This document shows, in pieces, positions 3,658 to 13,053 of a stretch of DNA of 64,000 bases. The notes beneath the pieces are model-generated. The model was given only the letters and a program-made list of their open reading frames with translations. It was not told the DNA's origin and ran no database searches. Location: contig NZ_CANLDB010000002.1 in NCBI RefSeq assembly GCF_947489365.1, forward strand, positions 620,001 to 684,000, written 5' to 3'. Positions within the stretch are counted from its first letter, which is position 1, and each line of letters starts with the position of its first letter. The DNA is from an uncultured Nocardioides sp. (lineage in GTDB: Bacteria > Actinomycetota > Actinomycetes > Propionibacteriales > Nocardioidaceae). The position numbers and the translations under genes are program-made.

Positions 3658-4557
3658 TCACCACCACGTCGGCTCGCCGAGCAGGTCGGCGAGGGCCTGG
3701 TTGTGGGGGGCGTAGTGCGCACGCAGCCCCTCCTCCAGCGCGGGGTCCATCGGGTCCTCCGGACGGCCGCGGTTGCGCTTGGCACCCGCCAGCCCGACCC
3801 GGTCGATGCCGACGAACTCCTGGATGCGGCCCAGGGTGTCGTCGGGGTCGGCGTACAGGTCCTCGCTGCGCAGGACGAGCACGCGGTCGCGGCCGTAGGC
3901 GTCGAACCACCGCTTCACCTGCGGTGCGTACTCGCCGCGGGTGCGGTAGGAGAACCAGTCCCAGGGGCGGCTGTAGTAGCCGGGCTCGGTGAGCATCCGC
4001 TCCTGCTCGCCGGCCAGCCGCTCGGGCTCGGCCGCGAGCGCCTCGGCGAACGGCAGGGTCTCGACGCCGGCGCGGGTGCGCTCCTGGTGGTGCGAGCGCG
4101 CGCGGACGACGGGGTCGCGCAGCAGCATCACGATCCTCGCCGCGGGCAGCAGCGCGCGGGCCCGCTCGGCGACGCGGGGGTCGAACAGGTAGAACGGGCT
4201 GGCCTCGAACGCCACCGCGGCCCCGTGCCGGGCCGCGTGCCGGCGGCGGGCGGCCCGGGTCGGGAAGTGGCCGAGGTACCAGTCCGGCCCGCGGTCGGTG
4301 TAGCGGTAGAAGTAGTGCGGGCTCTTGATGTTCTTCGCGGCAGGGACGGTGGTCATCACCTGCGGGTGGGTGACCAGCGTGGACCAGGTGAACGTCGTCC
4401 CCCCGCGCTTGGTGCCGACCACCAGGAAGTCCGGGCCCTGCCGCAGGCCGGCGCTCGCGGTGGTCGCGGCGCGGATGCCCGACTCGACGACGTCCTTGGC
4501 GCCCTGCGGCAGCAGCCGCTTGGCGAGGGTCGACGGGCTCGTGGCTGCGCTGGTCAT
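3658..4557 (-). CDS. Sulfotransferase, last gene of the exopolysaccharide operon
   Basis: PAPS-dependent sulfotransferase-like protein, 299 residues. The 5'-phosphosulfate loop is FLVVGTKRGGTTF near residue 33 and the 3'-phosphate motif is RIVMLLRDPVVRARS near residue 135. Its ATG overlaps the stop of the flippase gene (ATGA), so it is translated with the polysaccharide export genes. The likely acceptor is therefore a sugar of the exopolysaccharide or a glycolipid, which would make the polymer sulfated; that is inferred from position. The start MTSAATSP is fixed by the overlap; the track ORF running to 5367 is an upstream shadow. Confidence 0.85.
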   Translation of the reverse strand: MTSAATSPSTLAKRLLPQGAKDVVESGIRAATTASAGLRQGPDFLVVGTKRGGTTFTWSTLVTHPQVMTTVPAAKNIKSPHYFYRYTDRGPDWYLGHFPTRAARRRHAARHGAAVAFEASPFYLFDPRVAERARALLPAARIVMLLRDPVVRARSHHQERTRAGVETLPFAEALAAEPERLAGEQERMLTEPGYYSRPWDWFSYRTRGEYAPQVKRWFDAYGRDRVLVLRSEDLYADPDDTLGRIQEFVGIDRVGLAGAKRNRGRPEDPMDPALEEGLRAHYAPHNQALADLLGEPTWW

Positions 4558-6122
4558 CGTCGTGCTCCGATCAGTGCGCGGACCTCGCCGAGGTGCAGCC
4601 GGTGGCGCAGCGGCAGCAGCAGGGCGACGTACAGGAGGAGGGAGACGGGCAGCTGGACGGCCAGGCCGAGCAGGCCCGGGCCGAGGACCAGCACCACCGC
4701 CAGCGCGGGCAGCCCGAAGGCGAGCACGGCGACGCCGCCGGCCAGGCCGACCTCGCGCCAGGGCAGCGCCACGTCGACGCGGCCGCGGCGCCGCAGCGCG
4801 CAGAGGACCGAGTCGCTCGTCAGCGCCAGGCACCACGCGACGGCCGCGCCCGGGAGGCCCCACACCGGGATCAGCAGCAGGCCGAGGCCCAGGTTGAGGC
4901 CGAGCGAGACCACCGAGTTGGCCGCGGTGAGCCGGCTCAGGCCGGCCATGAGGAGCATCGAGTTGATGTTGCCGAGCGCCAGGTAGCCGAGCAGGCCCAG
5001 GCACATCACGGTCAGCGCGGGGGCCGCGGCGGTGAACTCGGGACCGACCAGCGACATCACGAGCGGCGAGAAGGCGGCGAGGGTCAGGAACATCGGCCAG
5101 GACAGCAGCACCAGCCAGGTCGTCGACATGGCGTGCACCTCGGCCGCCTCGTCGTGCCGGTCGCGGGCGAAGGCGGAGGCGAGCAGCGGCGCGGTGACGA
5201 TCCGCAGCGCCTCCATCGCCATGATCCCGGTGGTGACGAAGCGGCTCGCGGCCGCCCAGACGCCGGCGGCGGCCGGACCCAGCAGGAGACCGACGAGGAG
5301 CACGTCGGCCCACTTGATGCCGATCTCGCACAGCGAAGCGAGGCCGCGGGGCAGGTTGAAGGCCCACGCCTCACGCAGGACCTGGCGTCGGGGTCGGGGG
5401 GCGATCCCCGACGCCAGGCGATCGTGGCGCAGCGTCCGGCGCAGCAGGCCGAACGCCACGAGGTCCATCAGGACCAGGGGGACGGTCCAGGTCCACAGCA
5501 GCAGCGCCGTCGGCCCGTCGGTCAGCCAGAGCAGACCGAGCAGGAGGAGGCGGCCGGTGGGGAGCCAGACCTGGTAGAGCAGGACGAAGGTCCGCGCGCC
5601 ACCCAGCGAGCGGGTGCCGTTGACGCTCGCCTGGCCGACGGCCGAGAAGACGAGCGTGAGCGCGAGCACGAGCAGGAAGGTGCGGCCGAGGTTGACGTCG
5701 TCCGGGGTGAGGACGGCGGCCAGCGGGCCCGCGAGGGCGGCGAGGCCGCCGGCCACCACGAGGCTCCAGGCCAGCATCGGGGCGAGGATCGCGCTCGAGA
5801 CCCACCAGGCGTCCTCGTGGGCGCCGGTGGCGCGGTACGCCGCGACGCTGCGGACCAGGCCGCTGTCGCCGCCGGCCATGGCCACGACGTTGAGGATCAT
5901 GAAGACGGCGACGGCCATGAAGTAGAGGCCGGACAGCTCGGCGCCGAACCAGCGGCCGACCAGCACCGTCAGGGCGAAGCCGGCGAGCGCGGCGTACACC
6001 GAGCCGGCGAGGGTCATCGCCCCGGAGCGCGCCAGGCCCTTCCGGTCCGCGCCGGCGGGGGTGGGACCGGGGGTCCGACCGGCGTCGGGACGACGCTCGG
6101 TGGGCTCGCTGGACACGGTCAC
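4554..6122 (-). CDS. Polysaccharide flippase (Wzx/MATE-like)
   Basis: Integral membrane protein of 522 residues with about 12-14 hydrophobic segments, typical of polysaccharide exporters of the MVF/MATE superfamily. The opening SGAMTLAGSVYAALAGFALT and the segments with GWFGAELSG-like loops fit the family. It would flip lipid-linked repeat units across the membrane. The GTG start at 6122 lies two bases after the stop of the GT2 gene; a second GTG at 6116 is possible. The downstream sulfotransferase overlaps its stop. The 1003-residue ORF in the track is a longer open frame that runs through the upstream genes. Confidence 0.85.
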   Translation of the reverse strand: MTVSSEPTERRPDAGRTPGPTPAGADRKGLARSGAMTLAGSVYAALAGFALTVLVGRWFGAELSGLYFMAVAVFMILNVVAMAGGDSGLVRSVAAYRATGAHEDAWWVSSAILAPMLAWSLVVAGGLAALAGPLAAVLTPDDVNLGRTFLLVLALTLVFSAVGQASVNGTRSLGGARTFVLLYQVWLPTGRLLLLGLLWLTDGPTALLLWTWTVPLVLMDLVAFGLLRRTLRHDRLASGIAPRPRRQVLREAWAFNLPRGLASLCEIGIKWADVLLVGLLLGPAAAGVWAAASRFVTTGIMAMEALRIVTAPLLASAFARDRHDEAAEVHAMSTTWLVLLSWPMFLTLAAFSPLVMSLVGPEFTAAAPALTVMCLGLLGYLALGNINSMLLMAGLSRLTAANSVVSLGLNLGLGLLLIPVWGLPGAAVAWCLALTSDSVLCALRRRGRVDVALPWREVGLAGGVAVLAFGLPALAVVLVLGPGLLGLAVQLPVSLLLYVALLLPLRHRLHLGEVRALIGARR

Positions 6123-6124
6123 GA

Positions 6125-7063
6125 TCAGATCCCCCGGCCCCTCGCGTGGAGGGCGCGCTGCAGCCGGTCGGCGGAGACGACCCGCGACAGCACGAGCAGC
6201 GTGAGCGCGATGCGCGGCTCGCGGCGGTTGTCGGCGCGGGCGGCGCGCAGCCACCGGCGGGCCTCCGCCCGCTCGCCGAGCGCGGCGTGGGCGAAGGCGA
6301 TCTGCGCCTCGATGCGGGCCCGGCCGGCGCGCTGGCGCTCGAACTCCGGGTAGCGCCGCAGCATCTCGGTCAGGGCGTCGGCGATCATGCGCCACCGGCT
6401 GAAGAAGAACGAGCCGCCGTTCCACTCGATGTCCGCGACCACCTCGGGCACCAGGCGGATCGTTCCGAGGCGCGCGAGCTTGAGCAGCTGGTCGTAGTCC
6501 TCGGCGTACCCCCCGGGCAGGGAGGCGTCCCAGCCGTCGACCTTCTCCAGCGGCTCCCGGCGGAACAGCATCGCCGAGGAGTGCAGCTCCATGATCCGGT
6601 CCGCGAGGAGCTCGTCGAGGCCCACCTCGGCGAACGGAGCCCGGCGCAGCGTGACCGTGTCGCCGCGGACGATGCGGATGCTGCCGCCGACGGCGACCGA
6701 CTCGGGGTGCGCCTCGAGCTCGGCCACGCCCAGCGCGAGCCGGTCCGGCGTCCACACGTCGTCGTCGTCGCAGAGGGCGAGGTAGTCCTCGGTGAGCGCC
6801 TCCATGCCGGTGTTGCGGGCACCGCACTGCCCGGGCTCGCGCTGGTTGAGGTGCACGGTGAGGGTCTGCCGGTCGGGCTCGGGCGGCTCGGGGAGCTCGA
6901 GGTGGTCCGGGACCTCCCCGTCGATGACGACGGCGACGTTGACCTCGCCGGCGTAGCTCTGCGTCCAGACGGCCTCCAGGGCGCGTGCCAGCAGGCCGAA
7001 CCGGTCGCGGGTCGCGATCACGACCCCGACCGGCGGCTGCGTGCCCGTCCCCTGTGCGCTCAC
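6125..7063 (-). CDS. Family 2 glycosyltransferase
   Basis: Cytoplasmic GT-A fold glycosyltransferase of 312 residues. It opens with GVVIATRDRFGLLARAL, has the metal-binding acidic run ALCDDDDVWTPDRL near residue 105 and the acceptor/base region GGYAEDYDQLLKLA near residue 185. It would add a sugar to the lipid-linked repeat unit; donor and acceptor cannot be read from the sequence. The GTG start overlaps the stop of the Wzz-like gene (GTGA), which is preferred to the track start at 7078. It is part of the exopolysaccharide operon. Confidence 0.85.
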   Translation of the reverse strand: MSAQGTGTQPPVGVVIATRDRFGLLARALEAVWTQSYAGEVNVAVVIDGEVPDHLELPEPPEPDRQTLTVHLNQREPGQCGARNTGMEALTEDYLALCDDDDVWTPDRLALGVAELEAHPESVAVGGSIRIVRGDTVTLRRAPFAEVGLDELLADRIMELHSSAMLFRREPLEKVDGWDASLPGGYAEDYDQLLKLARLGTIRLVPEVVADIEWNGGSFFFSRWRMIADALTEMLRRYPEFERQRAGRARIEAQIAFAHAALGERAEARRWLRAARADNRREPRIALTLLVLSRVVSADRLQRALHARGRGI

Positions 7064-8196
7064 GCCGAGGCCGCCCACCTGCGGCCGCCGGCCGTCGCGA
7101 TGCCGAAGCAGGGGGCGTCGACGAAGTCGAGGCGGGCCACGGTCTGGTCGATCTCGTCGACGCGGGTGATGCCCTCGACGCCGATGAGGACGATGCCGTC
7201 GCAGGACGCGGCCTCGTCGAGGCCGTCGACGGTCTCGAGGTCGACGGGGACGACCCGGACCTCGAGGTCGGGTGCGGCCTCCGCGAGCTGGCGACGGACG
7301 ACGCCGACGAGGTCGTCGCGACCCTTCGCCATGACGTCGACACCGAGGCGGACGTGGCGCGCGTCGTCGCCGTCGACCCCGCCGAGGCGGCGCCCGACCC
7401 CGAGCATCGCGGCGACGCCGGCGATCCCGACGCTGGCCCGGCCCTCGAGGGCACCGAGGTCACGGACGCCGGGCACGGACACCGCACCCCGGCGGCGCAG
7501 GCGCGGCGAGCGGGCCTCCAGGAGGTACGCCGCCACCACGGCCAGCAGCAGGCCCGCGAGGCCACCCGCGAGGGGCAGCACCCCGGTGGGCAGCGCGCTC
7601 TCCTCGGCGGTGTCCTCGGCCGGCTGCGCGATCTGGCCGACGTCGACGATCGTGCTGTTCAGGCTCTGGCTCTGCTGGCGCAGCCGGTTGGTCTGCGTGG
7701 CCGGGGCCGTCTCGATCAGGTTGTAGACCTTCTGCTTCTGTCGCTGCCAGCGCTCGAAGGCGTCGGCCTGGGCGGCCTCCAGGTAGGCGACCGAGGCGGC
7801 GTCCGCCCCGGCCTCGGCGTCGACGGCCGTCGGGGCGGTGTACCGGAAGTCGATGAAGGAGGTGCCGTCGCGCACGGCGACGGTGAGGCTGTCCTCGACC
7901 TCCTCGACGTCCGTGCCGAGCTCCTCGGCGATGGCCGCGTGGACCGGCCGGGTCGCGGCCAGGGCGACCGAGTCCTCCGCCGAGGCAGGCGCCGGCGCCA
8001 GCTCCAGGATCCGCACCAGGCCGGGCCCCACCTGCACCGTCGCCGTCGCGGTGGCCGAGACGGGCGCGAGCGGGATCGCGGCCACCCCGAGGCCGATGCC
8101 GGCGAGCGTGCAGACGAGCAGGAGGACCCAGCGGTCGCGGGCGGCGGGGAGGATCCCCGTCACGGGACGCAGGGGCTCAGGCGTGTGGGCGCTCAT
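7060..8196 (-). CDS. Wzz-like chain-length/co-polymerase protein with BY-kinase-like tail
   Basis: 378 residues. A first membrane helix (WVLLLVCTLAGIGLGVAA) near residue 28 is followed by a periplasmic-type region with coiled-coil character (ERWQRQKQKVYNLIE). A second helix (LPLAGGLAGLLLAVVAAYLL) lies near residue 210, then comes a cytoplasmic domain of about 145 residues. This is the layout of actinobacterial polysaccharide co-polymerases fused to a tyrosine kinase. The tail ends with CDGIVLIGVEGITRVDEID, which resembles the end of a BY-kinase, but no Walker A motif is visible, so it is probably not an active kinase. The ATG overlaps the preceding stop by one base (TGATG). Confidence 0.75.
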   Translation of the reverse strand: MSAHTPEPLRPVTGILPAARDRWVLLLVCTLAGIGLGVAAIPLAPVSATATATVQVGPGLVRILELAPAPASAEDSVALAATRPVHAAIAEELGTDVEEVEDSLTVAVRDGTSFIDFRYTAPTAVDAEAGADAASVAYLEAAQADAFERWQRQKQKVYNLIETAPATQTNRLRQQSQSLNSTIVDVGQIAQPAEDTAEESALPTGVLPLAGGLAGLLLAVVAAYLLEARSPRLRRRGAVSVPGVRDLGALEGRASVGIAGVAAMLGVGRRLGGVDGDDARHVRLGVDVMAKGRDDLVGVVRRQLAEAAPDLEVRVVPVDLETVDGLDEAASCDGIVLIGVEGITRVDEIDQTVARLDFVDAPCFGIATAGGRRWAASA

Positions 8197-9590
8197 CAGG
8201 AGTGCTTCCTCTCGGGGCGTCGGCGGTCGAGGTACGGACCGCCGGCGGGCTCGGGTGTGGTGCGGGGGTCGGCGGACCGGTCGGTCCCCTCCCCCCTCCT
8301 CCCCGTCGCGCACACCGCGAGCGCGAAGAGCGCCGTGGCGAGCGGGACCGGGAGGATGTCGTAGAACGCGGTCTGCACGACGACCACGACGCCGGTGGCG
8401 TGGAGCCACAGGTCGGGCGAGGCGGCGCGGGCGGGCCGGGAGTGCCACCAGATCGCGGCGATCGTGCCGAGCAGCAGGGCGGCGCCGACCAGGCCGTGGG
8501 AGACCATGGTCGTCCAGAGCTGCCCGTGGGTGCCGATGGAGACGTCGTTGCTGTCGGCGAGGCCCTCCGAGGACTGCGGGGCGCCGTACCCGAAGAACGG
8601 GGAGCGCAGGGCCAGCTCCCACGAGGCCTGGTAGAGGGTCTCGCGGGTGCTGACGTTGCTGTACTCGAAGCGGCTGGTGAGGGTGTCGAGCAGCCCGGGC
8701 ACGGTGGCGACGACGGTGGCGACGACCCCGGCGCCCCCCAGGACGCCGAGGAGCACCTTCGGGCGGCCGGCGGCGACCCGGACCACCATCACGTAGACGA
8801 CGGCGACGGTGATGGACACCCAGGCGCCGCGGTTCACCGAGATCAGGATCGGGACCGCCGAGACCGCCAGGAGGACGGCGATCAGGACGCGGCGACGACG
8901 GGTCGCCGCGGTGAGGGCGCCGTGGACGGCGACCGGGGTCAGGATCCCCATCGCCGCGGCCCAGTCGTTGGTGTACGGGAACAGCGCCGCGGGCCGGGCG
9001 GTCTGGTAGAGCTGGTCGAACTCGGTGAAGCGGGCGCGCGTCATCGCCACGACGTACGGGTTGTTGATGCCGACCGTGCGCAGCGCCGTGCCGAACGGCG
9101 TCGGGATCTCCAGCGGCGCGACCAGCAGCCCCGGCAGGGCGAGCAGGACCGCCGCGCCCCAGAGGGCGAGCAGCCAGCCGAGCACCCGGCGGCGGTCGAG
9201 CCCACGGTGCAGGGCGTTCCACACGAAGAACGCCATGATCGCGACGGCGACGTACAGCGTGGTGCGCAGGCCGTACGCCAGGGCGTACCGCGCGGACGTC
9301 AGCATGAGCGCCGAGATCAGCACCCAGCCGAGGAAGACCAGCAGGACGCCGTACCCGGGCGGCAGGACGACCTGGCGGCGGTTGGTGACGAGCCAGGCCA
9401 GCAGCGGGAGCGCGGCGACGGGCCACAGCGGGATCTGGATGCCCAGCACCCACCACAGCGGGTAGCCGAGCAGCAGGACGGCGAGCGGGCGGGCGGCCCG
9501 CGCCACCGCGGCGCGCCCGTCGGCGCGACGCTCCTCGCGGGGCGCCACGCGGCGGCCGGGGTGCTGGCGGACCAGGTCGGTGACGGTCAT
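8196..9590 (-). CDS. O-antigen ligase/polymerase-like membrane protein
   Basis: 464 residues, about 11 hydrophobic segments, and a large extracytoplasmic loop before the last helices carrying SPFFGYGAPQSSE and SIGTHGQLWTTMVSHGLVG. This layout matches the Wzy_C (O-antigen ligase/polymerase) family, in which the loop binds lipid-linked glycan. It probably polymerises or ligates the repeat units outside the membrane. The gene starts at ATG 9590, whose ATGA overlaps the end of the long Alg13-like reading frame that runs antisense through the acetyltransferase gene. The next gene follows with a one-base overlap. Confidence 0.85.
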   Translation of the reverse strand: MTVTDLVRQHPGRRVAPREERRADGRAAVARAARPLAVLLLGYPLWWVLGIQIPLWPVAALPLLAWLVTNRRQVVLPPGYGVLLVFLGWVLISALMLTSARYALAYGLRTTLYVAVAIMAFFVWNALHRGLDRRRVLGWLLALWGAAVLLALPGLLVAPLEIPTPFGTALRTVGINNPYVVAMTRARFTEFDQLYQTARPAALFPYTNDWAAAMGILTPVAVHGALTAATRRRRVLIAVLLAVSAVPILISVNRGAWVSITVAVVYVMVVRVAAGRPKVLLGVLGGAGVVATVVATVPGLLDTLTSRFEYSNVSTRETLYQASWELALRSPFFGYGAPQSSEGLADSNDVSIGTHGQLWTTMVSHGLVGAALLLGTIAAIWWHSRPARAASPDLWLHATGVVVVVQTAFYDILPVPLATALFALAVCATGRRGEGTDRSADPRTTPEPAGGPYLDRRRPERKHS

Positions 9591-10735
9591 CGGCGGACCT
9601 GCCGGTGCTCTACCCTCGGCGCATGCTCGCCGCCCTGCTCCGGGCCCTGCGCCTCGACGGCGCCATCGCCGTCCGGCACCTCGTCCTCACCGTGCTCGCC
9701 GGGTCCGCGCTGACCCCGCGGCCCCTGCGCTTCGCGGTCTACCGCCTCGCCGGCCTCGACGTGCGCACCCCGAACATCTTCAGCGGCACCCGGATCACCG
9801 GCACCGACCTGCACATCGGGCGCGGCACCTTCCTCAACCACGACTGCTACCTCGACGTCGCGCGGGGACGCGTCGACATCGGTGAGCGGTGCCACCTCGG
9901 CCCGCAGGTCATGATCCTCACCGCGACCCACGACCGCGACGGTGCCGGCGGCGCCACCAGCGAGTCGCGCTACCTCACCACCGTCGTCGGCGACCGCGTG
10001 TGGCTCGGCGCCCGGGCCACGCTGCTGCCCGGCGTGGTCGTCGGCGACGGCTGCGTCGTGGCCGCCGGTGCCGTGGTCGCGAGCGACTGCGCCCCCGGCG
10101 GCGTGTACGGCGGCGTCCCGGCGCGGCGGCTCCGCGAGGTCGACGACGCGACGTCCGGCCACGCGTGAGCGCAGGGTCCGCACGAGGCTGGAGCGTCGGC
10201 GCGGACGGGAGCCGAGGAGACCGTCCAGCTCGTCGCCGAGCCGGCGGAGCGAGGCCTGGGTCACGGGGTCGACGACGGCCTCGGGCCCGCCGACCGGCCT
10301 GACCCTGCCCTCGGCCCGCGCCGCGTGGACCTCACGGTCGAGGTCGTCGGCGTCGAGGGCCAGGCGGACCAGCCCGGCGCGCTCGGCGGCGGCGGCGAAG
10401 CGCAGCTGGTGGGAGTCGACGTGCTCGCCGCGACCGGGGTCGCGGGGCACGCAGACGGGTCGGTGGCCGAGGCGACGGGCGTCGCTGATCAGGCCGGGAC
10501 CGCCGTGGCACACCACCGCCGAGGCCTCGGCGATCAGGGAGCGCAGCTGCGCGTAGGGCAGGTGGGGGTGACCCTCCGCCCGGCGCGGGGCCCGGGAGGT
10601 GCCGTGCTGGACGACGACGCGCACCTCGCGGCCACACCGGTCGCTCCAGCCGTCGGCGAGCTCCACCAGCCGGTCGAACGGGTGGTGGTCGGTTCCGGTC
10701 AGGAACAGCACGGGTCCCGAGAGGGGTGCACTCAC
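9587..10735 (-). CDS. Alg13/PssE-like glycosyltransferase C-domain, with long antisense extension
   Basis: The first about 185 residues are a GT28-type C-terminal domain that binds the nucleotide sugar: GPVLFLTGTDHHPFDRLVE, then EASAVVCHGGPGLISDARR and GEHVDSHQLRFA. With the Alg14-like protein encoded just upstream it would form a two-part glycosyltransferase. GTG at 10735 overlaps the preceding stop (GTGA). After about residue 190 (near 10168) the frame stays open for another 190 codons opposite the acetyltransferase gene and stops at 9587, where TGA overlaps the ATG of the next operon gene. The tail has the composition of a shadow translation. The domain is certain; the true 3' end is not. 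Confidence 0.6.
   Translation of the reverse strand: MSAPLSGPVLFLTGTDHHPFDRLVELADGWSDRCGREVRVVVQHGTSRAPRRAEGHPHLPYAQLRSLIAEASAVVCHGGPGLISDARRLGHRPVCVPRDPGRGEHVDSHQLRFAAAAERAGLVRLALDADDLDREVHAARAEGRVRPVGGPEAVVDPVTQASLRRLGDELDGLLGSRPRRRSSLVRTLRSRVAGRRVVDLAEPPRRDAAVHAAGGAVARDHGTGGHDAAVADDHAGQQRGPGAEPHAVADDGGEVARLAGGAAGTVAVVGRGEDHDLRAEVAPLTDVDASPRDVEVAVVVEEGAAPDVQVGAGDPGAAEDVRGAHVEAGEAVDREAQGPRGQRGPGEHGEDEVPDGDGAVEAQGPEQGGEHAPRVEHRQVRR
9611..9616 (+). promoter_or_regulatory. Leaderless-type -10 (TACCCT) for acetyltransferase
   Basis: TACCCT lies six bases before the ATG at 9623, so transcription would start at or next to the start codon. No Shine-Dalgarno is visible. Confidence 0.5.
9623..10168 (+). 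CDS. Hexapeptide-repeat acetyltransferase
   Basis: Left-handed beta-helix acyltransferase of 181 residues. Hexapeptide turns run through GTRITGTDLHIGRGTFLN, VDIGERCHLGPQV, VVGDRVWLGARATLLPG and VVVGDGCVVAAGAVV, with the usual GVYGGVPARRLR ending. The catalytic His of the family fits ATHDRD. It probably O-acetylates a sugar of the exopolysaccharide. It is the only plus-strand gene inside the minus-strand operon. The start MLAALLRAL at 9623 is chosen over the track GTG at 9605 because of the leaderless -10 just upstream. A minus-strand frame stays open across the whole gene. Confidence 0.85.
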   Translation: MLAALLRALRLDGAIAVRHLVLTVLAGSALTPRPLRFAVYRLAGLDVRTPNIFSGTRITGTDLHIGRGTFLNHDCYLDVARGRVDIGERCHLGPQVMILTATHDRDGAGGATSESRYLTTVVGDRVWLGARATLLPGVVVGDGCVVAAGAVVASDCAPGGVYGGVPARRLREVDDATSGHA

Positions 10736-11211
10736 AGGAGCGGCCCCACCAGGCGCGCGTCGGGGTACACGTCGAGCTGGCTGTCCCACTGGGCGATCCG
10801 TCGGGTCGTGAAGGGCGCCACCAGGCGGCCGGTCATGGTGGCCGAGTCGACGCGGTCGTAGACCTCGATGAAGACCGTCGGGATCCGCATGAGCCAGGCC
10901 ACGACGAAGAACGGCACCGCGACGCCCGCGCCGGTCGAGAGCACGAGCGCCGGCCGCTCGGCCCGGACCACCCGGAGCGCGAGCCCCAGGTTGCGCAGGA
11001 GGTTCGGCACGTGGCGCGTGGTCGGCGAGTACGACGTCACCACCCGCTCGTCCGCGAGCTTGTCGCGGACGTCGGCGGTGTCGGGGCACACCCAGACGCG
11101 GTCGTGGGCGGCGTACCAGCCCCGGAGCGCGAGGAGCTGGGCCAGGTGACCGCCCTGGGTGCTGACCAGCAGCACCGGACCGCCCCCCGAGCCGCGGTCG
11201 GCGGGGTCCAT
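10732..11211 (-). CDS. Alg14/PssD-like glycosyltransferase subunit
   Basis: About 159 residues. The start GPVLLVSTQGGHLAQLLALR is the Alg14/PssD/EpsE signature, and TGAGVAVPFFVVAWLMRIPT is the membrane-associated hydrophobic segment. Such subunits anchor and activate the Alg13-like partner, encoded next with a GTGA overlap. The ATG at 11211 avoids overlap with the upstream gene; the track GTG at 11235 is an alternative with AGGGA close by. The likely reaction is addition of the second sugar to the lipid-linked primer. Confidence 0.8.
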   Translation of the reverse strand: MDPADRGSGGGPVLLVSTQGGHLAQLLALRGWYAAHDRVWVCPDTADVRDKLADERVVTSYSPTTRHVPNLLRNLGLALRVVRAERPALVLSTGAGVAVPFFVVAWLMRIPTVFIEVYDRVDSATMTGRLVAPFTTRRIAQWDSQLDVYPDARLVGPLL

Positions 11212-11224
11212 CAGCCGGTGCCCA

Positions 11225-12745
11225 TCAGTAGGCACCGTCCCTGCGCAGCACGGCGCGCAGCGTCCGCAGGCAGATGGCGAGGTCGCCGCCGACGGTGATG
11301 TTGTCGGTGTAGTGCAGGTCGAGCGCGACGGCGCGCTCCCAGGCCAGGTCCGAGCGGCCGCTGACCTGCCAGAGCCCGGTCAGGCCGGGCTTCACCGCGA
11401 GGCGGCGGCGGGTGGCCTCGTCGTACAGGGCCACCTCCTCCGGCAGCGCCGGGCGCGGACCGACGAGCGACATGTCGCCCTTGACGATGTTGATGAGCTG
11501 GGGCAGCTCGTCCAGCGAGGTGATCCGCAGCAGGCGACCGACGCGGGTGATGCGCGGGTCGCGGCGGATCTTGAACAGCACCGCGTCCGACTCGTTGGAG
11601 TGGGTGAGCAGGGTGCGCCGGTCCTCCGCGTCGTCGGTCATCGTGCGGAGCTTGTAGATCGTGAAGGGCCGGCCGTAGCGGCCGATGCGCGTCTGCGTGA
11701 AGAGGGCGTCACCGCGGGAGTCGAGGCGGATCGCCAGGGCCGCGACGCCGATGACCGGCGCGGCGATCGTGAGCAGCACCAGGCCGGCGAGCCGGTCGAA
11801 CAGGATCTTGGCGACGGCGGCCAGCATGCGCGGACGCGGCGGGGCCACGGAGACGACGGTGCTGTCGGCGACGCCGGACACCGAGATGCGGTGCGGCGCG
11901 AGCGACCCGGACTCGTCGAGCACGCCCAGGTCGGCCCCGGTGTGCTCGAGGTGCCAGCTGAGCTTGCGGAAGGTGTCGGTCCCGATCCCGGCACCGCTCG
12001 TGGCGAGGACGAGGTCGACCTTCCAGGCGGTCACGGCGGCCGCGATGTCGGAGTGGCCCTCCTCGATGGGGGCGCCCGGGTAGCGGTGCACGTAGCCGGG
12101 GTCACCGTCCACGGTGATGTCGCAGAGGCCGACGACGATCGCGTCGCGGCGGTCGGACCAGCGGCGGAAGGCCGCGGCGGTGACCTCGGGCTCCCCGACC
12201 ACGAGGACGCGCTTCGGCCCGCGGCGCCACACCCGCAGGGCGCAGAGGACGAGGGCGACCGCGGTCGCGAGCACGGCGACGAGCATCACGTCGAGCACGA
12301 CGGCGCGGGCGGTGCCCGCGAGGACGGCGACGATGGCGGCGGCGGAGGCGACGTAGAACCCGGCGCGCAGCGGGACGTCCCAGGCGATCGCCGTCGAGGA
12401 CCTCCCGGCGCCGAAGGCGACGCAGGCCACCAGCCAGCCGCCGAGCGAGGCTGCGGTCAGGGCGCCGGGCGACCCGGCGTACGTCGCGGCGCCGACGACG
12501 GCCAGCACGAGGACGAGGAGGTCCGCCAGGGACCGCACCGCCCCCAGGGAGGCGGCGCGCGGTGGACGGGCGTAGTCGGGACCCGCCGGGGCGGGCAGTA
12601 TCGACGACACGTTCCGCGGCACGGACGGTTCCCGGGCGACGACACGGTCGTCGCCGGCGGCGACGGGGTCACCGGCAGCCCCCGCGGGCGGCACGCGGCC
12701 GGCCACGGAGAGCTGGGTGCTGCCCAGCGCTCGTTGCTTCGTCAA
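11225..12745 (-). CDS. WbaP-like polyprenyl-phosphate sugar-1-phosphate transferase
   Basis: Initiating enzyme of the exopolysaccharide operon, about 506 residues. N-terminal membrane helices (residues about 55-185) are followed by a CoA-binding/Rossmann-like region (RVLVVGEPEVTAAAFRRW) and the C-terminal bacterial sugar transferase domain with FTIYKLRTM, DELPQLINIVKGDMSLVGPRP and KPGLTGLWQVSGRSDL. It transfers a sugar-1-phosphate to undecaprenyl phosphate. The TTG at 12745, preceded by a G-rich AGGGGGGG, gives a family-sized protein. The track start at 12910 would add 55 residues of atypical sequence and run through the promoter region. Confidence 0.88.
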   Translation of the reverse strand: MTKQRALGSTQLSVAGRVPPAGAAGDPVAAGDDRVVAREPSVPRNVSSILPAPAGPDYARPPRAASLGAVRSLADLLVLVLAVVGAATYAGSPGALTAASLGGWLVACVAFGAGRSSTAIAWDVPLRAGFYVASAAAIVAVLAGTARAVVLDVMLVAVLATAVALVLCALRVWRRGPKRVLVVGEPEVTAAAFRRWSDRRDAIVVGLCDITVDGDPGYVHRYPGAPIEEGHSDIAAAVTAWKVDLVLATSGAGIGTDTFRKLSWHLEHTGADLGVLDESGSLAPHRISVSGVADSTVVSVAPPRPRMLAAVAKILFDRLAGLVLLTIAAPVIGVAALAIRLDSRGDALFTQTRIGRYGRPFTIYKLRTMTDDAEDRRTLLTHSNESDAVLFKIRRDPRITRVGRLLRITSLDELPQLINIVKGDMSLVGPRPALPEEVALYDEATRRRLAVKPGLTGLWQVSGRSDLAWERAVALDLHYTDNITVGGDLAICLRTLRAVLRRDGAY

Positions 12746-13053
12746 CTCGAGGCCCCCCCTCGATAAAACCGGAGACGACCCCGGCCGTGCCACCGTTGCC
12801 CGGTGGCTCCAGGTCAGACCCGGTGCGCGTCGCGCACGAGCCTGCCCCACTTCGCCTTCACTTGAAGAACACTGTCCACAGTCACGAACAGCGTTGTCAA
12901 TCGGAACCATTATTCCTGGCGCAAACGCTGAGCATTCATTGAGCGGACCACGTACCGATACCCTCGTCCCGGACCGGGCGGGCCGTGGGGGCCGCGCGCC
13001 GGCCGCGACTCGGGAGCGGTGGAGAGGTGCCGCCCGGAAGGAGGCGACCGCCG
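12746..13053. promoter_or_regulatory. Divergent promoter region, EPS operon / TetR gene
   Basis: 308 bases without a gene and visibly richer in A+T than its surroundings. On the minus strand TTGACA at 12895-12900 is followed 18 bases later by TGTGGACAGT, a weak extended -10, for the exopolysaccharide operon. On the plus strand TACCCT at 12959-12964 is a possible -10 for the TetR gene, with AAGGAGG just before its ATG. An inverted repeat lies over the minus-strand promoter. Promoter calls are by eye. Confidence 0.4.
12868..12895. promoter_or_regulatory. Candidate operator: inverted repeat AACACTGT / ACAGCGTT
   Basis: Two 8-base arms matching at 7 of 8 positions with a 12-base spacer, placed between the putative -35 and -10 of the exopolysaccharide operon and facing the TetR gene. 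It could be the site for that TetR regulator; not tested. Confidence 0.3.

Follow-up and report, generated by a model that had tools for sequence, protein, structure and literature searches.

Noncontiguous operons are exemplified by menE-menC-MW1733-ytkD-MW1731 of Staphylococcus aureus (Saenz-Lahoya 2019, reviewed in PMC7154746), in which, as the review outlines it, a single opposite-strand gene interrupts the series and would yield a messenger RNA (mRNA) antisense to the polycistronic one. Inversions of single genes have been described among genome rearrangements (PMC6220195 and references therein), and codon bias, according to the work cited in PMC3454372 (Merino 1994, Silke 1997), has long been recognized as a cause of long antisense ('frame -1') open frames. 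These three themes meet in a 64,000-nucleotide stretch of the genome of an uncultured Nocardioides sp. (contig NZ_CANLDB010000002.1, positions 620,001 to 684,000), referred to below as the window. Here the O-acetyltransferase gene act has very probably been inverted in place within a co-directional, translationally coupled polysaccharide operon, leaving the PssE-like glycosyltransferase encoded upstream of it with an antisense tail. The relevant features, in window coordinates, are these:

11225 to 12910, minus strand: gene for a wbaP-like polyprenyl glycosylphosphotransferase, the first operon gene examined (TIGR03025 above cut-off; Pfam Bac_transf).
10732 to 11235, minus strand: pssD, encoding the Alg14/PssD-like partner of PssE (NCBIfam PssD, E=8e-29; Pfam Alg14).
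10160 to 10735, minus strand: PssE-like glycosyltransferase domain (Alg13-like, GT28 C-terminal type), codons 1-192 (NCBIfam PssE, E=1e-13; Pfam Glyco_tran_28_C, E=2e-8).
9587 to 10159, minus strand: extension of PssE by read-through, 190 codons without an in-frame stop, followed by the TGA that forms part of the wzy ATGA.
10166 to 10168, plus strand: act stop codon TGA, complementary to the TCA codon of PssE Ser190.
10148 to 10165, no strand: approximate position of one proposed inversion breakpoint, between the C-termini of PssE and act.
9623 to 10168, plus strand: act, a hexapeptide-repeat O-acetyltransferase gene (Pfam Hexapep, E=1e-15), very probably inverted in place relative to seven congeners.
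9611 to 9616, plus strand: TACCCT, a -10-like box of the form TANNNT and candidate leaderless promoter of act, its first T lying 12 bases before the act ATG.
9591 to 9622, no strand: gap of 32 bases separating the start codons of act and wzy, which are divergent; the other proposed breakpoint lies in or near this gap.
8196 to 9590, minus strand: wzy, O-antigen ligase/polymerase family (Pfam Wzy_C, E=3e-15), its start codon sharing an ATGA with the stop that closes the extended PssE frame.

The PssE frame (10735 to 9587, minus strand) starts with a GTG at 10735, which forms a GTGA with the overlapping stop codon of pssD, and continues for 382 codons before reaching the TGA at 9589-9587. Together with the wzy ATG (9590-9588) this TGA makes up the overlap ATGA. 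Homology to the PssE proteins of relatives ends at Val192 (10160), in the sequence ..LRSRV, and codons 193-382 are antisense to the whole of act and to the 32-nucleotide gap. A preliminary description of this DNA had claimed just such a frame, with 190 extra codons opposite act and its TGA in the wzy ATGA. The claim is confirmed both by the window and by the genome of Nocardioides sp. CFH 31398, in which the PssE frame is equal in length and has the same ATGA end.

The gene order in relatives indicates how this frame came about. When 220 congeners were searched with the acetyltransferase and PssE, and the 13-16 kb around the matches were compared, nine genomes proved to contain the operon. Seven of these, which include N. 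ferulae, N. alkalitolerans, N. zeae and sp. ChNu-153, display the order wbaP-pssD-pssE-act-wzy-wzz-GT2-wzx-sulfotransferase on one strand throughout, with wbaP undetected in the compared stretch of one of them, G115. The window genome and CFH 31398, from two related soil bacteria, depart from this order solely in the reversed orientation of act, and no further inverted genome was seen among the 220 congeners or the other named genomes returned. Identity between act copies of the two arrangements is 65-70%, compared with 43% for the next best act-like gene of the genus, and on this comparison act is the orthologous operon copy in both.

The junctions are equally informative. The C-terminus of PssE in the co-oriented genomes is mostly ..SRVxR*. 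The PssE stop codon overlaps the act start (ATGA or GTGA), and the act stop overlaps the wzy start in the same manner (ATGA or GTGA), both overlaps being of four bases. In the inverted pair PssE is homologous up to ..RSRV, after which the sequence is the reverse complement of the act 3' end, without a stop until the wzy ATGA; the inversion has thus removed the final two residues of PssE and its stop codon. The TGA within the wzy ATGA would correspond to the stop of act itself in the ancestral order. The suggestion in the preliminary description that relatives be examined for the open frame and ATGA junction therefore gave a divided answer, as both are kept in CFH 31398 while PssE stops at its C-terminus in the seven others. 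A stop at this position in relatives had been expected to expose the tail as chance or error, but the seven genomes that have one carry act in the other orientation. Seen against this gene order, the open tail follows from the proposed flip and is not to be put down to error or to an accident of a single genome.

In a tree constructed from wzy, GT2, the sulfotransferase and pssD, and rooted on three other congeners, the inverted genomes form a single clade (support 100/100) nested among the co-oriented genomes, with G115 and N. ferulae branching off earlier (nesting nodes 91/95 and 86/95). Because the inverted pair nests in this way, and the junction details point likewise, the act inversion is most simply interpreted as derived and as having happened once. 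The locus thus displays the same flanks, an orthologous gene, the opposite orientation and, with moderate rooting support, a derived position on the tree, as in the single-gene inversions described previously (PMC6220195), where one gene is reversed in place and kept. The present case differs in that the proposed flip took place inside a tightly coupled operon and thereby changed the stops of two genes. It should be noted that several points count against an in-place inversion. Both branches that root the event as derived have only moderate support. The exact breakpoints are not fixed, the nearest co-oriented genomes being ~30-45% diverged at the protein level, and an inverted repeat that would explain the event was not found at the breakpoints. 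Finally, loss of act followed by its reverse re-insertion at the same place would look alike.

In the history that we propose, act alone would have flipped in an ancestor common to CFH 31398 and the window genome. One breakpoint would have taken the last two codons and stop of pssE, while the other would have spared the wzy start together with the TGA formerly serving as the act stop. PssE would then continue through the open antisense frame of act and end, after 382 codons, at the wzy ATGA. The flipped act would carry on from the opposite strand, with a new stop opposite a PssE serine codon and probably its own leaderless promoter. The operon mRNA would still cross act as antisense RNA, because no terminator-like site and no operon-strand TANNNT (within 250 nucleotides before wzy, in both inverted genomes) was found, and ribosomes could translate the tail and arrive at the wzy ATGA, keeping wzy coupled to PssE.

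The openness of the tail is in itself expected from codon bias in a genome of 75% G+C. The tail reads act antisense in codon register, such that a stop is possible only opposite TTA, CTA or TCA; given the act protein and local codon usage, the probability that the in-register antisense frame is open is ~0.9, compared with 3.3 and 4.5 stops expected on average in the other two antisense frames. Consistent with this calculation, the in-register frame is open in all nine act homologues, whereas the other two carry 2-7 stops each, and the same register is open in eight of nine other genes tested. The PssE tail is thus exactly the kind of long antisense frame discussed by Merino 1994 and Silke 1997, as cited in PMC3454372, although such frames are usually unconnected to any gene while here a real gene runs into one. 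Composition leaves unexplained why PssE lost its stop, and for that loss the gene comparison indicates the inversion as the cause. As the registered antisense frame is open to translation, these data suggest that codon bias makes such flips more survivable in high-G+C bacteria.

After the proposed flip act required both a new end and a new beginning, and the sequence contains candidates for each. The TCA opposite the act stop is the only TCA in PssE in both inverted genomes. As TCA is also rare nearby (1 of 155 serine codons in nearby genes), and most relatives have TCG at this PssE position, the codon is plausibly the mutation that gave act its new end. The gap between act and wzy is 32 bases long in both inverted genomes, and the box before act is TACCCT in the window and, at the same place, TAGGGT in CFH 31398, only the NNN of TANNNT being different. 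A box at this exact distance precedes 0.3% of the ATG/GTG positions in the window, rising to 0.6% when one base of leeway is allowed. TANNNT spaced ~12 bases before the start is a leaderless signal in actinobacteria (PMC3160421), and in Mycobacterium tuberculosis the motif is the common -10 element, of which new copies often create new starts (PMC3898074). With TANNNT ~12 bases upstream and only weak Shine-Dalgarno pairing (-1.4 kcal/mol), act displays the sequence features of a leaderless gene and probably has its own leaderless promoter. Neither sigma-70 consensus promoters nor intrinsic terminators were detected between 9400 and 10900, a result that is weakly informative in this organism. 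Were act to begin instead at an in-frame GTG at window position 9605, 18 bases farther upstream, the TANNNT box would become part of the coding sequence; a leaderless gene is more readily reconciled with the ATG at 9623. The act proteins of the two inverted genomes are 88.8% identical despite 33% divergence at fourfold sites, a pattern indicating that act is kept as a functional gene under purifying selection.

Whether the tail matters to the cell is a separate question from how it arose. That it is a functional overlapping protein domain appears very unlikely, although the open frame is equally long in two species. The tail is only 68.6% identical between the inverted genomes, as against 88.8% for act, and the act fourfold sites, which lie opposite first codon positions of the tail, differ at 39 of 117 positions compared with 698 of 1,811 in eight neighbouring genes. 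There is consequently no significant sign that the tail slows synonymous change in act (Fisher p=0.28, two inverted genomes), nor is the tail conserved beyond what act imposes, as would be expected of a functional overlapping gene. Structure prediction points in the same direction: residues 5 to ~175 fold with confidence, while the predicted local distance difference test (pLDDT) score is below 50 for residues 176-382 and ~25-36 in the tail, although the prediction drew on six sequences only and the low values are suggestive of disorder rather than proof of it. NCBIfam and Pfam give no family match beyond residue 143 of the extended PssE. The tail is thus probably a tolerated by-product that bears no sign of selection as a protein. 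An indel or assembly error that removed the true PssE stop, an explanation offered in the preliminary description, is still less credible. The PssE of relatives does stop near this point, but CFH 31398, an independent assembly from another species, has the same junction and open frame, which an error would explain only if both assemblies shared it, the sequence that follows PssE is the reverse complement of act and not a shifted PssE end, and the relatives show that it is the neighbouring gene that has been inverted. It is similarly improbable that the act inversion is a reversible, phase-variable switch. Both orientations occur within the genus, but orientation follows lineage on the tree, and the longest inverted repeat across the breakpoints (7 nucleotides) is no longer than chance, being reached by 48% of random pairs.

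A more serious contender, although we consider it doubtful, is that the antisense tail has been selected, not as a protein but because its continuous translation would maintain the coupling of wzy, avert Rho-dependent polarity and protect the mRNA against duplex formation with the act mRNA. Inversions that placed PssE in other frames would then have been lost, a view compatible with the inversion itself. PssE does occupy the sole open antisense frame of the three and ends exactly at the wzy ATGA; by our estimate entry into the open frame (~1/3) and into the frame that ends at the ATGA (~1/3) have a joint chance of ~1/9, at most a hint of selection. The arrangement is, furthermore, unchanged in a second species at ~87% nucleotide identity, and the lack of an operon-strand TANNNT before wzy described above weighs on the same side. 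The Shine-Dalgarno pairing of wzy is also weaker in the inverted genomes (-6.9 and -6.0 kcal/mol) than in the co-oriented relatives (-7.6 to -10.4 kcal/mol). Against these observations, the frame is open through codon bias, so its retention needs no selection; two genomes of one lineage represent one event; and wzy still possesses a better than average Shine-Dalgarno site in the inverted genomes. The proposal in the preliminary description that wzy is reached by translation through antisense sequence is therefore structurally possible and conserved in the second species, but the tail itself bears no sign of selection.

In the wider context, the gene order in the window and CFH 31398, with one interspersed opposite-strand gene, has the structure by which noncontiguous operons are in part defined, and to this extent the likeness drawn in the preliminary description holds. 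The rest of the definition concerns expression: one mRNA for the flanking genes that runs across the reversed gene, a promoter belonging to the reversed gene with an mRNA that overlaps the polycistron, and reciprocal control through RNA polymerase collision and RNase III. The stretch opposite the reversed gene is, in the published account of the S. aureus operon, untranslated mRNA, whereas in the inverted genomes the frame of the preceding gene stays open across it. A further difference is that the ancestral all-forward operon is visible in relatives of the window genome. Tentatively, the locus may represent a translated noncontiguous operon born by the flip of one gene, in which the upstream gene reads through antisense and hands over at the old ATGA, the operon having survived the reversal because ribosomes stay on its mRNA. 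No paper combining a reversed operon gene with a read-through frame was found in the open-access literature. The two arrangements together document the states before and after the proposed flip, and with them a way in which an operon can acquire a gene in reverse orientation.

The locus also calls for caution in annotating the extended PssE/act region, where automated gene prediction may shorten pssE, miss act altogether or yield a product of 382 residues, half of it antisense sequence. In our searches the antisense-tail part of the query matched the reverse strands of unrelated acetyltransferase genes in other genera of the order; false homologues are thus to be expected when proteins with such tails serve as queries. 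With respect to the domain proper, PssE scores 51.4 bits against the NCBIfam equivalog NF041548 (PssE/Cps14G), under the curated cut-off of 120 bits, and the neighbouring gene 100.9 bits against NCBIfam PssD (cut-off 110); the protein is accordingly classed as PssE-like only, paired with a PssD-like gene. In order, domains and family matches the two resemble the Alg14/Alg13-like pairs PssD/PssE and Cps14F/Cps14G, from which the window PssE differs in carrying an extra, non-homologous tail of 190 residues.

From wbaP to the sulfotransferase-like gene (window 3658-12910) the operon is almost without gaps, and several adjoining genes overlap by 4-20 bases, among them pssD/pssE (GTGA), the PssE tail and wzy (ATGA), and wbaP/pssD (11 bases). 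In one relative, G233, the wbaP match (11226-12042) is in two pieces that meet at query residue 466 with a small offset, possibly reflecting a frameshift or an assembly error.
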